From: Methanococcoides orientis
GTDB lineage: Archaea > Halobacteriota > Methanosarcinia > Methanosarcinales > Methanosarcinaceae
Length of the DNA: 64,000 nucleotides
Direction of reading: 5' to 3'
NCBI RefSeq assembly: GCF_021184045.1
Contig: NZ_CP073710.1
Coordinates: 434,001 to 498,000, forward strand
Part shown: piece by piece, positions 13,758 through 61,628 of the stretch
Position numbering within the stretch: position 1 is the stretch's first letter
Layout of the letters: each line of letters starts with the position of its first letter
Program-made: the position numbers and the translations under genes
The notes under the pieces: generated by a model
What the model saw: the letters and a program-made list of their open reading frames with translations, nothing else
Database searches by the model: none
Told to the model about the DNA's origin: nothing

Positions 13758-13771
13758 TTCACAATAGTGAA
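13758..13771. promoter_or_regulatory. Palindromic operator candidate TTCACAATAGTGAA
   Basis: A perfect inverted repeat (TTCAC-AATA-GTGAA) located 80 bp before the HTH regulator gene. It lies between an upstream AT-rich stretch (TTTATATTATTTA, about 13734-13746) and a second possible TATA element (ACATATATATG, about 13774). The identical 16-mer ATTTCACAATAGTGAA plus T recurs at 16836-16852. Autoregulation by the downstream HTH protein is inferred. Confidence 0.5.
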
Positions 13772-13850: not shown

Positions 13851-14171
13851 ATGAATCTGGAAACTCCCTGTCAGGCAGTTGTATGGGATATCCTCCCGGC
13901 TATCCGTGCAGCGCTTGCAATGGAACTTGTAAAGAACGGGATCTCACAGAAAGAAGTTGCAAAGATGTTTGGAATGGCTCCTTCTGCTGTATCTCAGTAC
14001 CTGACAAAAAAACGAGGCTATCGTATAGAATTTGATGACGATGTGAAAGAGTCTATAGCTCGTCTTGCTCTTGAGATACAGGAGGGTAAGGTGGATAATG
14101 TCCCTGCAAAGATCTGTGAGATCTGCAGGTATTTAAGAAGAGGTGAGGGTGCCTGCCCTGTGGAAGATTGA
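13851..14171 (+). CDS. XRE-type HTH regulator with cysteine-rich tail (COG2522-like)
   Basis: A 106-residue predicted DNA-binding protein. Residues ~15-55 hold the helix-turn-helix (LVKNGISQKEVAKMFGMAPSAVSQYLTKKRG). A short helical linker leads to a C-terminal KICEICRYLRRGEGACP, with Cys spacing C-x2-C-x9-C plus an early Cys in ETPCQAV. That cysteine set could bind an iron-sulfur cluster or zinc, making this a plausible sensor; this is inference. The gene is monocistronic, convergent with the sensor kinase gene. It has a palindrome upstream that recurs before the tRNA-Cys-like/thi4 unit, so I propose it controls sulfur or Fe-S genes in this neighbourhood. Confidence 0.85.
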   Translation: MNLETPCQAVVWDILPAIRAALAMELVKNGISQKEVAKMFGMAPSAVSQYLTKKRGYRIEFDDDVKESIARLALEIQEGKVDNVPAKICEICRYLRRGEGACPVED

Positions 14172-16800: not shown

Positions 16801-16851
16801 ATCTATATATATAATAAATACAATTCACGATTGTGATTTCACAATAGTGAA
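16801..16851 (+). promoter_or_regulatory. TATA box with two tandem operator palindromes before tRNA-Cys/thi4
   Basis: ATCTATATATATAAT (16801-16815) is a strong TATA element. Directly downstream lie TTCACGATTGTGAT (16824-16837, imperfect) and TTCACAATAGTGAA (16838-16851, perfect), which abut each other. They cover the expected transcription start near 16838, a classical repressor position, only 12 nt before the tRNA-like sequence. The perfect copy is identical to the one before the HTH regulator gene at 13851. Confidence 0.55.
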
Positions 16852-16863
16852 TCGGTAACAATT

Positions 16864-16934
16864 GGCTGGATGGCAGAGTGGTTATGTGTCCGACTGCAGA
16901 TCGGAGTACCTAAATTCGATTCTCACTCCGGCCT
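16864..16934 (+). tRNA. tRNA-Cys (GCA)-like gene with a poorly paired T stem
   Basis: The acceptor strands GGCTGGA and TCCGGCC pair over 7 bp (one G-U), with discriminator U73, a Cys identity base. The anticodon stem TCCGA/TCGGA is perfect around loop CTGCAGA (anticodon GCA). The D arm has GCA/TGT pairing and a GTGGTTA loop. The T loop TTCGATT is canonical, but the flanking 5 nt arms CTAAA and CTCAC form at most two scattered pairs where five are expected. CCA is not encoded; a TTTT run follows. Methanosarcina carries atypical tRNA-Cys isoacceptors, so it may be functional, but a pseudogene or tRNA-like leader element is also possible. Confidence 0.7.
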
Positions 16935-17038: not shown

Positions 17039-17830
17039 ATGAATCAATTCGCACAAGCAACTGAAAAAGATATTACGCGTTCGATAGTTGAAGAATTCCT
17101 TGGAGATTTCCTTAATCACATAGAAAGTGATGTTATCATTGTTGGCGGAGGGCCAAGTGGACTTGTAGCAGCAAGGGATCTTGCTTCCAAAGGCCTAAAG
17201 ACCGTTGTGCTTGAGAGCAACAATTACTTTGGTGGCGGCTTCTGGTTAGGTGGTTACCTGATGAACAAGGTTACAGTAAGAGCGCCTGCACAGAGGATCT
17301 TTGACCAGCTTGGTGTTCCTTACAAGGAAGTACCTGATATAAAGGAAGGTCTCTATGTTGCAGATGCACCATCTGCCTGTTCCAAGTTGATCTCAGCTGC
17401 CTGTGATGCAGGTGCTTTCATGCTGAACATGAACAAGTTCGATGATGTTGTTCTCAGGGACGGACGTGTTTGCGGTGCTGTTACCAACTGGACACCTGTC
17501 TCAGCATTACCACGCGCTATAACCTGTGTGGATCCTGTGGCTATCGAGACGAAATGCGTTATTGATGCAACAGGACACGATGCGGTCGTGGCCAACTCAC
17601 TTGCAAACCGTGGTCTGGTAGACCTTAAAGGCTTCCTGGGAATGGATGTTGATAATTCCGAAGATGCTGTGGTGAACAACACTTCTGAGCTTTACCCGGG
17701 ACTCGTAGTTACAGGAATGGCCGCAGCTACATGTTTTGGTCTTTCCAGAATGGGTCCTACCTTTGGTGGCATGTTGGAATCCGGTGTAAAAGCTGCAAAG
17801 ATCGCTGAAGAGATCGTAAGGTCCAGATAA
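17039..17830 (+). CDS. thi4: Thiamine thiazole synthase Thi4, Cys type
   Basis: A ~263-residue protein of the Thi4 family, which makes the ADP-thiazole moiety of thiamine from NAD and glycine; paralogous use as ribulose-1,5-bisphosphate-forming enzyme is known in some methanogens. The dinucleotide-binding motif is VIIVGGGPSGLVAARDLA near residue 35, followed by ESNNYFGGGFWLGGYLMN. At the sulfur-donor position the motif reads TCVDP (Cys163), as in yeast and Haloferax suicide-type Thi4; the sulfide-using methanogen enzymes have His there. Start ATG 17039 follows GGTGA by 4 nt; ATG 17027 is an alternative. It lies ~100 bp behind the tRNA-Cys-like gene and probably shares its promoter. Confidence 0.9.
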   Translation: MNQFAQATEKDITRSIVEEFLGDFLNHIESDVIIVGGGPSGLVAARDLASKGLKTVVLESNNYFGGGFWLGGYLMNKVTVRAPAQRIFDQLGVPYKEVPDIKEGLYVADAPSACSKLISAACDAGAFMLNMNKFDDVVLRDGRVCGAVTNWTPVSALPRAITCVDPVAIETKCVIDATGHDAVVANSLANRGLVDLKGFLGMDVDNSEDAVVNNTSELYPGLVVTGMAAATCFGLSRMGPTFGGMLESGVKAAKIAEEIVRSR

Positions 17831-18046: not shown

Positions 18047-19216
18047 ATGTTCGACAAAACCGTATATCTTGATAATGCTGCCAGTACTCGATTGGATGAG
18101 AGGGTACTTGAAGCAATGAATCCGTATTTTTTTGATACTTATGCAGTTGCTACTTCCGAATTTGGATATTCAATGGGAATTGATTCCAAGGAAGGACTTG
18201 AAAGATCCCGAAAGGTAATTGCATCAGCTCTTGGTGCAGATGCCAGTGAGGTCGTGTTTACTTCGGGAAGCACTGAATCGAGCAACATGGCAATAAAAGG
18301 GGTTCTTTCTGCGTTGAAAGGCAAGAAGGACGATCACCTGATCGTCTCCCGTCTGGAAGACTTCGATGTTCTGAACACTGCTAAGATGCTCGAAAAACAG
18401 GGCTATAAGGTTGATTTCATAAGTGTTGACAGTGAAGGGATCCTCGATCTTGAAATGCTTAAGGCTGCTATCACTCCTCAGACTGCACTGGTCTCTATCC
18501 AGCATGCAAACCAGGAGATCGGTACGTTGCAGGATATTAAGTCCATAGCAGACATCTGTAAAGAAAAGGAGGTTTTGCTGCATACTGATGCAACTCACAG
18601 TTTCACAAGGATTCCTCTTGACGTAAGCGAGATACCTGTTGATCTTGTCACGGTCTCAGCTCATACTATTCACGGTCCTCGTGGGGTTGGAGCCCTGTAC
18701 ATAAGAGAGGGTACTCCTATCAACAAATGGATGGACGGAGGTTTCCAGGAGTCCGACCGGCGTGCAGGTATTGAGAATATCCCTGGTGCTGTAGGTTTTG
18801 CAAAGGCTGTTGAGCTGGTTACTCCTGAGGAGACCGAGCAGCTTAAGGCAATGAGGGATCGCGTTATTGAGAGGATAAGTGCTGAGATACCCAGTGTTAC
18901 TCTCAATGGTAGTGCTACGAGCAGGCTGCCACAGAATGCTAACATGACATTCCATTATGTTGAAGGTGAATCTATTACGTTACACCTGGATATGATGGGT
19001 TTTGCAGTGAGCACGGGGTCTGCATGTTTCAGTCGCTCCCTTGAGGCAAGCCATGTTATACTTGGTATAGGTGGCGACCATGAGCGAGCTCACGGTTCAT
19101 TGCGTTTCAGCTTCGGAAGATTTAACACTATGGAAGATGCAGATTCTATTATTGATGCGTTGAAGGAAGTTGTTGTTAATCTAAGGGCTATCAGCCCGCT
19201 GTCAGCAGATGAGTAA
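18047..19216 (+). CDS. IscS/NifS-like protein lacking the PLP lysine
   Basis: A 389-residue class V aminotransferase-fold protein that aligns over its whole length with cysteine desulfurase IscS. Kept residues: Asn in HANQEIG, Asp181 (PLP ring N), the mobile-loop Cys327 in STGSACFS, and Arg in LRFSFGRFNT. Replaced residues (E. coli numbering): His104, which stacks on PLP, is Asp105; Gln183 is His184; and the Schiff-base Lys206 is Thr207 in SAHTIHGPRG. A normal PLP-dependent desulfurase reaction is therefore unlikely. An Archaeoglobus fulgidus IscS without the lysine has been described, so this may be a scaffold-binding or persulfide-relay variant. The IscU-like gene follows after 31 bp. Confidence 0.9.
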   Translation: MFDKTVYLDNAASTRLDERVLEAMNPYFFDTYAVATSEFGYSMGIDSKEGLERSRKVIASALGADASEVVFTSGSTESSNMAIKGVLSALKGKKDDHLIVSRLEDFDVLNTAKMLEKQGYKVDFISVDSEGILDLEMLKAAITPQTALVSIQHANQEIGTLQDIKSIADICKEKEVLLHTDATHSFTRIPLDVSEIPVDLVTVSAHTIHGPRGVGALYIREGTPINKWMDGGFQESDRRAGIENIPGAVGFAKAVELVTPEETEQLKAMRDRVIERISAEIPSVTLNGSATSRLPQNANMTFHYVEGESITLHLDMMGFAVSTGSACFSRSLEASHVILGIGGDHERAHGSLRFSFGRFNTMEDADSIIDALKEVVVNLRAISPLSADE

Positions 19217-19247
19217 ATCAATATCAAGGAATACAAGAGGTGGTTCT

Positions 19248-19883
19248 ATGAATTTCCCTTATAGTAAAGAGGTACTTGAGCATTTCAAAAATCCACATAA
19301 CGTGGGCAAGATGGATGATCCGGACGGAAAGGGTCTCGAAGGCAGTGCAGCATGTGGGGATATGGTTGCTGTTTACCTGAAAGTGAATCCTGAGACTCTC
19401 ATCATTGAAGATATTTCCTTCGAATCTTACGGCTGTGCATCCAACATTGCTACAGCTTCTATTATTACTGACCTTGCAAAGGGAAAGACCCTTGATGAGG
19501 CCAAGAAGATCACATGGAAGGAGGCTGCAGAGGCACTTGGCGGACTTCCTGCGGTAAAAGCACACTGTTCTGTACTGGCAGTGGAAGGCCTCAGATCTGC
19601 TATACGTGACTATGAGGAAAAGCATGGGATGGTCGTAGAGAAAGAGACGACTGACGAGGAAGTTGTCAAAAGGCGCCTGAAACATGTGATGAACCCGATA
19701 AAAGGACTGGATATTATAAGGACCGAGCTTGTGATGAAGATAACAGTCGATGAAGGCAATGTACGTGTAGTGCTTGACCTACCTTCCCATCACCAGTTCG
19801 CAGCTGCAATAAAAGAGGACGTCATCGAGAAGCTGGAAGCTCTCTGGGATGTTGAAAGTGTCACGGTTGATTTCATCTCCTGA
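19248..19883 (+). CDS. IscU-type Fe-S scaffold fused to MIP18/DUF59-like domain
   Basis: A 211-residue protein. Residues 1-125 are an IscU/NifU-N scaffold with all cluster ligands: Cys36 and Asp38 (AACGD), Cys63 (GCASN), His106 and Cys107 (AHCSVLA). Residues ~140-211 form a second domain (LKHVMNPIKGLDII...VRVVLDLPSHHQF...LWDVESVTVDF) with the size and strand pattern of MIP18/DUF59 Fe-S assembly proteins, although it lacks their conserved Cys. Start ATG 19248 is set by AGAGGTGG at 19236-19243. It shares a transcript with the lysine-less IscS. The complete ligand set argues that cluster assembly is active even though its IscS partner looks catalytically altered. Confidence 0.88.
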   Translation: MNFPYSKEVLEHFKNPHNVGKMDDPDGKGLEGSAACGDMVAVYLKVNPETLIIEDISFESYGCASNIATASIITDLAKGKTLDEAKKITWKEAAEALGGLPAVKAHCSVLAVEGLRSAIRDYEEKHGMVVEKETTDEEVVKRRLKHVMNPIKGLDIIRTELVMKITVDEGNVRVVLDLPSHHQFAAAIKEDVIEKLEALWDVESVTVDFIS

Positions 19884-59888: not shown

Positions 59889-61628
59889 TTGATAGAAACC
59901 AGAATTTTGATTGCCTTTTTCCTTTTGTACTGGGTCATTGTATCGATCCTTGACAAAAAAGGCATACTTGAGCGATATAACATCTCTACCTATGGTCCTG
60001 TACTTATGATAAGGACTCTCAGGGGCCAGAAACTGTTGGACTTCCTTGCAAAGCCTAAAAGTGCGTGGAAGTTATTTGCGAATATTGGCATAATCCTTAT
60101 GTTCATTGGCATGTTCGCCATGTTCCTCATTATAGTTATATCAGATGTTGCCATGCTGTCTTCCATTGGGGATAATACACTTCCTGAACCGGGTAAGTTC
60201 AATGAGGCAAGGAACATTTTCCTAATACCGGGTGTAAATGAGTTCATACCTCTTTCCTGGGGTATTATTGCTCTTCTGGTAACACTTGTAGTACATGAGT
60301 TCTCACATGCGATCCTGTGTAGGGTAGAAGGCATCAGGGTCAAGTCCATGGGTATCCTGCTTGCTATAGTTCCTATCGGAGGTTTTGCCGAACCGGATGA
60401 GGAGGAGCTTTTCGGGGTAAGGGCGGAAGCTGATACTGATCAGGTCACAAGTTCCACTGATGGGCCTATCGAGAGGAAGGTCCTGGGTATAGATAAAAAG
60501 CCAGATAATAGCAAAGTGGCCACAAGGGAACAAAGGGCACGGATACTGGCCGCCGGTGTTATGTCCAATTTTATGGTTGCAGCAATCGCATTAATACTTT
60601 TGTTCGGTCCTGTCCTTGGAGCGATATCACCTCTTGGTGATGCTATGATAGTTAATGTTACACCTGATTCTTCAGCAGATATTGCAGGACTTCAGGATAA
60701 CATGGTCATCACCCAGATCGATGATACTCCGGTTGCGAACGTGAACGATATTCTGCTTTATATTGATAATATTGAACCTGGTACTGTGGTGGAGGTGCAT
60801 GCTGCCAAAGACCGTGTGGTCTCGACCTATGATGTTCAGGTGGCAGAACCCGGCCTACAGGAAGCTAATGGAGTCTTTATAAACAATATTGTTCCGGACT
60901 CGCCCGCTGAAGCAGCGGGTATCGAGAAAGGAATGCTTATCATTAACATTGATGGAACTCCAATAAATTCCTCCGATGACTTCGTAGTTTTCATGAGCTC
61001 AACAAAGGCCGGTCAGACGATCATGGTAGAGGCTCTGGTGGGCGATGGTCCTGTGGAAGAAGCATCCTCTGCTTTCTTTGAAGTAGAGCTGGCTCCGGGT
61101 CAGGATGCCACTTCTGAGAAAGGTTTCCTTGGTGTTTATTATAATGGACTGGAGATAACCTCTCTTGGCCTTACTGTGGGTGAGTTCCCTGCAAAGGCCT
61201 ACCTTGAAGCCCTGCAGTCAATACCTTCACTGATGACCGGTTTTGTCGGCTGGGTCATTCTTCTGGGACTTCCTATCGTGGGCTTTGCTGGTGAAGGTTT
61301 CCCTGGATTTAGTGGCACACTTGCCCAGTTCTATCATCCTGTAGGGTGGGGTGAACCTCTGGGTATCGGTGTGTTCTGGATCGCCAATACTTTGCTATGG
61401 GTCGGTTGGCTTAATTTCTATGTTGGCCTTTTCAACTGTCTTCCGGCAGTTCCATTAGATGGTGGTCATGTGTTCAAGGACTATCTCAGGTCCTTTGTTG
61501 GCAGGCTCGTATCGGATGAGGGAAGGGCAACAGAGATATCAGCAGCCATAGCCGCAACTTTCACATTTGTGATCCTCATATCCTTCCTGTTCATGATATT
61601 CGGACCATATATCGTACATGGGTTCTGA
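59889..61628 (+). CDS. Site-2 intramembrane metalloprotease with two PDZ domains
   Basis: A 579-residue M50 family protease. The zinc-binding HEFSH (His136-His140) lies in LVVHEFSHAILCR, and the third ligand is in the C-terminal NCLPAVPLDGGHVFKD near residue 517. Two PDZ domains lie at residues ~255-320 (VNVTPDSSADIAGLQDNMVI) and ~325-390 (NNIVPDSPAEAAGIEKGMLI) between catalytic halves. Six or more membrane helices are visible. TTG 59889 is the start, with GGAG 7 nt upstream. It cleaves membrane proteins after a first cut, typically in regulated proteolysis of envelope stress regulators; the substrate here is unknown. Confidence 0.93.
   Translation: MIETRILIAFFLLYWVIVSILDKKGILERYNISTYGPVLMIRTLRGQKLLDFLAKPKSAWKLFANIGIILMFIGMFAMFLIIVISDVAMLSSIGDNTLPEPGKFNEARNIFLIPGVNEFIPLSWGIIALLVTLVVHEFSHAILCRVEGIRVKSMGILLAIVPIGGFAEPDEEELFGVRAEADTDQVTSSTDGPIERKVLGIDKKPDNSKVATREQRARILAAGVMSNFMVAAIALILLFGPVLGAISPLGDAMIVNVTPDSSADIAGLQDNMVITQIDDTPVANVNDILLYIDNIEPGTVVEVHAAKDRVVSTYDVQVAEPGLQEANGVFINNIVPDSPAEAAGIEKGMLIINIDGTPINSSDDFVVFMSSTKAGQTIMVEALVGDGPVEEASSAFFEVELAPGQDATSEKGFLGVYYNGLEITSLGLTVGEFPAKAYLEALQSIPSLMTGFVGWVILLGLPIVGFAGEGFPGFSGTLAQFYHPVGWGEPLGIGVFWIANTLLWVGWLNFYVGLFNCLPAVPLDGGHVFKDYLRSFVGRLVSDEGRATEISAAIAATFTFVILISFLFMIFGPYIVHGF

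Follow-up and report, generated by a model that had tools for sequence, protein, structure and literature searches.

The window that we analysed is the whole 64,000-nt stretch of the Methanococcoides orientis chromosome presented above. It carries a tRNA-Cys gene that is preceded by a double palindrome and followed, on the same strand, by thi4, nifS-like and nifU-like genes. The features needed for the argument are the following, in window coordinates.

13758..13771, no strand: operator TTCACAATAGTGAA, the third exact operator site of the genome, with an equivalent site before the same gene in G007, G010 and G017
13851..14171, plus strand: HTH_3 (XRE-like) regulator gene coding for several Cys residues (Pfam HTH_3, 26.5 bits), with the operator 13758-13771 upstream
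16804..16813, plus strand: TATA box TATATATATA, recognised by sequence, with a predicted transcription start near 16833
16824..16851, no strand: double operator over the expected start site, TTCACGATTGTGA at 16824-16836 and TTCACAATAGTGAA at 16838-16851, kept before tRNA-Cys in other genera
16864..16934, plus strand: tRNA-Cys(GCA), probably decaying, with 2/5 T-stem pairs (ARAGORN, Rfam, pair count, relatives)
17039..17830, plus strand: thi4, Cys-type by the aligned donor residue (TIGR00292, 231 bits; alignment to 1rp0 and 4y4n)
18047..19216, plus strand: NifS-like cysteine desulfurase gene (TIGR03402, 438 bits, under the curated cut-off of 531)
19209..19883, plus strand: NifU/IscU-like Fe-S scaffold gene (TIGR03419, 151 bits, under the cut-off of 188)

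ARAGORN places a tRNA-Cys(GCA) at exactly 16864-16934. The gene has the GCA anticodon, the U73 and the full acceptor (7/7 pairs) and anticodon (5/5) stems of a functional elongator, together with a D stem of 3/4 pairs, but it does not have the complete T stem that goes with them: the pairs are C.C, U-A, A.C, A-U and A.C, and the normally invariant 53-61 pair is an A.C. The pair count thus bears out the preliminary description, which had noticed an almost unpaired T stem next to an intact acceptor, anticodon stem and U73. That description had also proposed an Infernal-type score and a comparison with the other tRNA-Cys genes of the genome. With the Rfam tRNA model, the gene reaches 38.5 bits, where 29 is the gathering score, and it ranks 51st of the 52 tRNAs in the 2.49 Mb genome, the remainder scoring 37.4 and 44-73 bits. 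Five further 72-nt tRNA genes share a score of 54.7 bits; the one that was inspected is a tRNA-Cys downstream of the 23S and 5S rRNA, and the remaining ones are taken to be rRNA-operon copies of tRNA-Cys. As the genome has these other tRNA-Cys genes, the window copy is probably dispensable.

The comparison with relatives points in the same direction. In four other Methanococcoides genomes (G003, G004, G007 and G010), the tRNA-Cys of the same locus has a GUGAG/CUCAC T stem with 5/5 pairs and scores 52.9-61.7 bits, against 38.5 in the window and 32.2 in the sister species G006. The window gene differs from that of G004 only at positions 46, 47, 49 and 51; three of these changes fall within the 5' T strand and the fourth adjoins it. 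The changes at positions 46, 49 and 51, two of which affect the T stem, are common to the window and G006, and the latter carries further changes at positions 1, 18 and 28 that leave its first acceptor pair broken. The operator and tRNA-Cys are tandemly duplicated in G003 and G004 (L033, L034/L046), where the second G004 copy is also damaged. A conserved alternative T-stem pairing was sought among the orthologues and none was found. The atypical T stem is therefore best read as a lineage-specific pseudogene decay, which is one of the three possibilities that had been put forward for this odd tRNA. The two others, an atypical tRNA-Cys and a tRNA-like leader sensing cysteine, find no support in orthologues that have ordinary T stems and share no alternative pairing, and we rejected the sensing leader for these reasons. 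One may still consider that the gene encodes a functional tRNA and that its T stem is either tolerated or repaired, for instance by a C-to-U editing that mends the A.C mismatches, since the acceptor, the anticodon stem and U73 show no damage and A.C accounts for two of the three mismatches. We regard this as quite improbable: the C.C mismatch would persist after editing, and the ordinary T stems of the orthologues, the broken acceptor pair of the sister species and the damaged tandem copy of G004 all speak for decay.

The tRNA starts 12 nt past the double palindrome, which ends at 16851, as the preliminary description had it, and the palindrome itself is no isolated occurrence. The motif TTCACN4GTGA occurs 6 times in the window, where 0.7 occurrences would be expected, and none of the shuffles reached 6. 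In most of the regulon promoters measured, the operator centre is found 21-27 nt downstream of the TATA box, the automatic choice of the TATA box being unreliable in some of them. With an operator upstream in several genomes, the HTH_3 gene at 13851..14171 is presumed to belong to the same regulon as the tRNA-Cys. A further TTCACATTTGTGA site at 61560-61572 may be a chance match, given the 0.7 expected in the window.

On the other side of the tRNA, the best thi4 start is at 17039, 105 nt after the tRNA and on the same strand, in agreement with the distance of about 100 bp given earlier. The tRNA-Cys-thi4 order is the same in G003, G004, G007 and G010, and a co-transcription of both genes is possible. 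The TCVDP of the window Thi4 aligns with the SCMDP of Arabidopsis THI1, which puts a Cys at the sulfur-donor position, where methanogen-type Thi4 structures (4y4n) have a His. The earlier guess of a suicide-type Thi4 is thus supported at the residue level; the NCBIfam name of the matched family is sulfide-dependent.

A search with the promoter DNA found the same double palindrome before another gene in the genus and the family. In this genome, it is located at C1:261407-261436, ahead of a regulator gene starting ATGAGGGATCGCTTTTGTTGAC (G000:C1:260950-261343, minus strand, outside the window), and the operator lies over the start site of the regulator's own promoter. The product matches Pfam HTH_24, its AlphaFold model has a pLDDT of about 90 over residues 31-90, and the nearest solved structures are mostly of the MarR family (TM about 0.45-0.5). 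It is hence predicted to share the winged-helix fold of MarR-type regulators, but it is short and, unlike them, has no evident ligand-binding dimer domain. Because its gene carries the same operator, this regulator is the most likely binder of the tRNA-Cys operator. Its DNA-binding helices are nearly identical in the lineages with TTCAC-type and GTTAAC-type operators, with no covariation between recognition helix and operator, so binding specificity is neither supported nor refuted by covariation. In Methanosarcina, no clear operator was seen ahead of the regulator, and its leader, described below, is retained.

The surroundings of the regulator have features of their own. Beside it here (G000:C1:257500-267000, L367) are a divergent TusA-like gene, a DUF169 gene and a second SepCysS-type gene, and the same set adjoins it in G017. 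A radical SAM gene is repeatedly found beside the regulator or its tRNA-Cys (L354 13500-14492, L365 985-1971, L372 7053-8045).

The most singular property of the regulator gene is the way in which it opens. The leader reads ATG AGG GAT CGC TTT TGT TGA here, and its frame 0 encodes only MRDRFC*. The winged-helix protein is in the +1 frame, where no start codon is present and the upstream limit of the open frame is the TGA inside ATGA. These frame relations can be read directly in the DNA, as can the slip site and its conservation. Homologues were gathered over the order and the phylum, giving 154 distinct loci, with the leader consensus ATG AGG RAT CGN YTT TGY. All 55 loci without an in-frame ATG, GTG or TTG carry the leader (55/55); as they were picked by the absent start codon alone, this figure is independent of the motif-based classification of leaders. 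Conversely, the loci without a leader, mostly haloarchaeal, all have an in-frame ATG (67/67), and an in-frame start occurs incidentally in 30 of the leader loci. L120 is a disrupted locus and the leader hit of L290 is a chance match. SepCysS above the cut-off was absent from the five haloarchaeal-type genomes checked. Over the phylum, the leader pattern occurs in 43 of 393 genomes, with 0 for the reversed control.

The entropy of the leader is 0.25 bits per site, and it is 1.6 on either flank. Where a change would be silent in the +1 frame, the bases are frozen: Phe is TTT in 86/86, though TTC makes up 63% in the same genes, and Ile is ATC in 85/86, though ATC is only 36% there. Variation is seen at the last base of CGN and of TGY, where it is silent in frame 0. 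The A-site codon is Cys in all leader loci, preceded by UUU or CUU, which permits a +1 re-pairing on the following U; the P-/A-site pairs are UUU-UGU (65), CUU-UGC (16), CUU-UGT (3) and UUU-UGC (1), and the next codon is not conserved. A frame-0 stop follows within 7 codons in 83/85 leader loci. The junction thus has a start only in frame 0, a body only in +1 and a conserved shift-prone site between them, and synthesis of the regulator apparently depends on a programmed +1 ribosomal frameshift. In addition, the 16S end contains GGATCACCTCC, and by analogy with E. coli prfB the AGGGATC of the leader may act as an internal Shine-Dalgarno element.

Other origins of the frame break were considered and rejected. 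Dozens of independent genomes exclude a sequencing error. A slip at the start codon is contradicted by L099 and L201, in which the ATG is displaced upstream by three codons and one codon, respectively, with CGT-YTT-TGY kept in place. A slip after the Cys codon does not fit either, as the codons that follow differ greatly between loci and tRNA-Cys would be unable to re-pair; termination-reinitiation in the body frame would need a start codon, which 55 loci do not have. It could also be argued that there is no frameshift at all, a non-standard codon of the +1 frame serving as the start of the regulator and MRDRFC being a separate leader peptide; the amino acids GI.F(V/A) are indeed conserved in the +1 frame too, and the 30 incidental in-frame starts would fit. 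We hold this to be very improbable, as in the 55 loci the body frame offers no ATG, GTG or TTG ahead of the domain, this frame is closed up to the TGA that overlaps the ATG, the ribosome-binding sites fit the frame-0 ATG and the +1-synonymous sites are frozen.

The conserved Cys codon placed after a re-pairing P-site codon is what one expects of a hungry-codon sensor, and suggests the following functioning. Ribosomes would start at the frame-0 ATG of the leader. With plentiful Cys-tRNA, the Cys codon would be read and translation would stop within a few codons (MRDRFC* here). With scarce Cys-tRNA, the ribosome would pause at the empty UGU with tRNA-Phe on UUU (tRNA-Leu on CUU elsewhere), and the peptidyl-tRNA would slip by +1, from UUU onto the overlapping UUU, or from CUU to UUU in other lineages. 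The shifted ribosome would continue as MRDRF-VDN... to yield the regulator, which would then control tRNA-Cys genes and cysteine/sulfur genes as well as its own gene.

The content of the regulon, like the operators that its members share, is directly visible. A tRNA-Cys lies within 1.25 kb of 12/69 leader loci, against 5 for the other tRNA types combined. In Methanoregula-like genomes and related ones it is close to the regulator, often divergent, several times with an operator about 20 nt upstream, and in G193 the regulator and the tRNA-Cys both have an operator variant ending ATTGTTAAG. In G017 and several f16 genomes, the operator is followed by tRNA-Cys, SepCysS, then O-acetylhomoserine sulfhydrylase and MetX; in related methanogens, operators also precede CysK (then CysE), NifS, ThiM and the HTH_3 gene. 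In G344, CysRS comes after tRNA-Cys with no obvious adjacent operator. In eight genomes scanned for GTTAACNNNGTTAAC, it stands ahead of the regulator or a paralogue, never ahead of a tRNA-Cys. The genome studied here encodes SepRS (760 bits), CysRS (495 bits) and three SepCysS over the cut-off. One SepCysS gene, which is N-terminally extended, has an upstream TTAACAGCGTTAA palindrome (L368 3499-3511, G000:C1 about 587999), the operator type found ahead of the regulator in other genera. Separately, the SepCysS match of G003, G007, G010 and G040 contains one in-frame TAG, which could be a pyrrolysine or a near-end stop. A ThiR/thiamine operator was rejected: the operator marks cysteine genes and not thiamine genes, ThiM in G017 excepted, and a literature search gave nothing usable. 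By these occurrences, we assign the window tRNA-Cys operator to a cysteine regulon. The preliminary description was therefore right to tie the locus to cysteine status, but the tie passes through the operator and its frameshift-bearing regulator. Taken as a whole, a decaying tRNA-Cys in the regulon of a MarR-like regulator made by a Cys-tRNA-gated +1 frameshift is the reading that these sequence data make reasonably probable.

The sign of the regulation deserves a separate discussion. Known archaeal regulators repress from operators over the start site. With such a position here, repression and autorepression are the simplest reading, and on operator geometry alone we lean towards a repressor. 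A repressor would switch off the window tRNA-Cys, and possibly thi4-nifS-nifU, when Cys-tRNA falls. Combined with the sensor logic, this geometry would however have SepCysS and CysK repressed during shortage, which is hard to understand, and such biosynthetic targets would suit an activator. In that case, a Cys-tRNA shortage would raise the regulator and turn on tRNA-Cys, SepCysS and CysK/CysE, in keeping with the starvation direction of the sensor. With operator centres 21-27 nt downstream of TATA, over the start site, in most promoters, we consider an activator somewhat doubtful. The gating may be questioned too. The frameshift could be real and have a set ratio that simply keeps the regulator low, the Cys codon being kept as an always slow codon and the regulator sensing something else or nothing. 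A short slippery leader before an autoregulated gene suffices for low expression, and a constitutive low-level shift would leave the same sequence traces as the gating that we infer. Such an ungated shift seems unlikely to us, given that no leader has lost its Cys codon, even where UGU and UGC are exchanged, and that the regulon includes tRNA-Cys and SepCysS.

The gated frameshift has several counterparts among known systems. It resembles the +1 frameshift of E. coli prfB (RF2) by its early YUU-U slip site, slow A-site codon, short frame-0 peptide and autoregulatory logic, and possibly by its internal Shine-Dalgarno-like element. It differs in its A-site codon (Cys here, UGA in prfB), in its product, an archaeal transcription regulator, and in its presumed signal, which would be Cys-tRNA supply and not the release factor. 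As in amino-acid attenuation leader peptides, a cognate codon in a short leader would report charged-tRNA supply, but the output would be a frame change into the same gene instead of a transcription terminator or mRNA structure. Starvation-induced frameshifting has been under study for decades. Hungry-codon frameshifting (Gallant and others) likewise shifts at a codon with scarce aminoacyl-tRNA but is known from constructs, and a 2016 review knew of no natural hungry-codon shift making a starvation-specific protein (PMC5009743). Archaeal recoding is represented by fucA1 (-1) and magnesium chelatase, which differ in having -1 or A-rich sites and, in the available parts of the sources, no sensor role shown (PMC8211752, PMC5009743); the available part of the archaeal recoding review names only -1 frameshifting and magnesium chelatase (PMC8211752). 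The survey of clade VII SepCysS also found tRNA-Cys, SepCysS and sulfur genes adjacent, and its main text mentions neither regulation nor a frameshift (Mukai 2017, PMC5424206). We found no earlier report in the open-access literature, and a prior description may exist elsewhere.

We think the odds favour, if only modestly, a natural hungry-codon sensor, in which a Cys-tRNA shortage at one Cys codon would yield a regulator of tRNA-Cys and cysteine metabolism across the methanogens of the phylum. Such a sensor would be a first case of a programmed frameshift gated by starvation, and it would give archaea a +1 frameshift with a regulatory role. The leader is short and conserved in many genera, and genes carrying it are likely missed or called broken by annotation pipelines. 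If this is true, archaea with tRNA-dependent cysteine synthesis would have a cysteine regulator, which would explain the operators over their tRNA-Cys genes.
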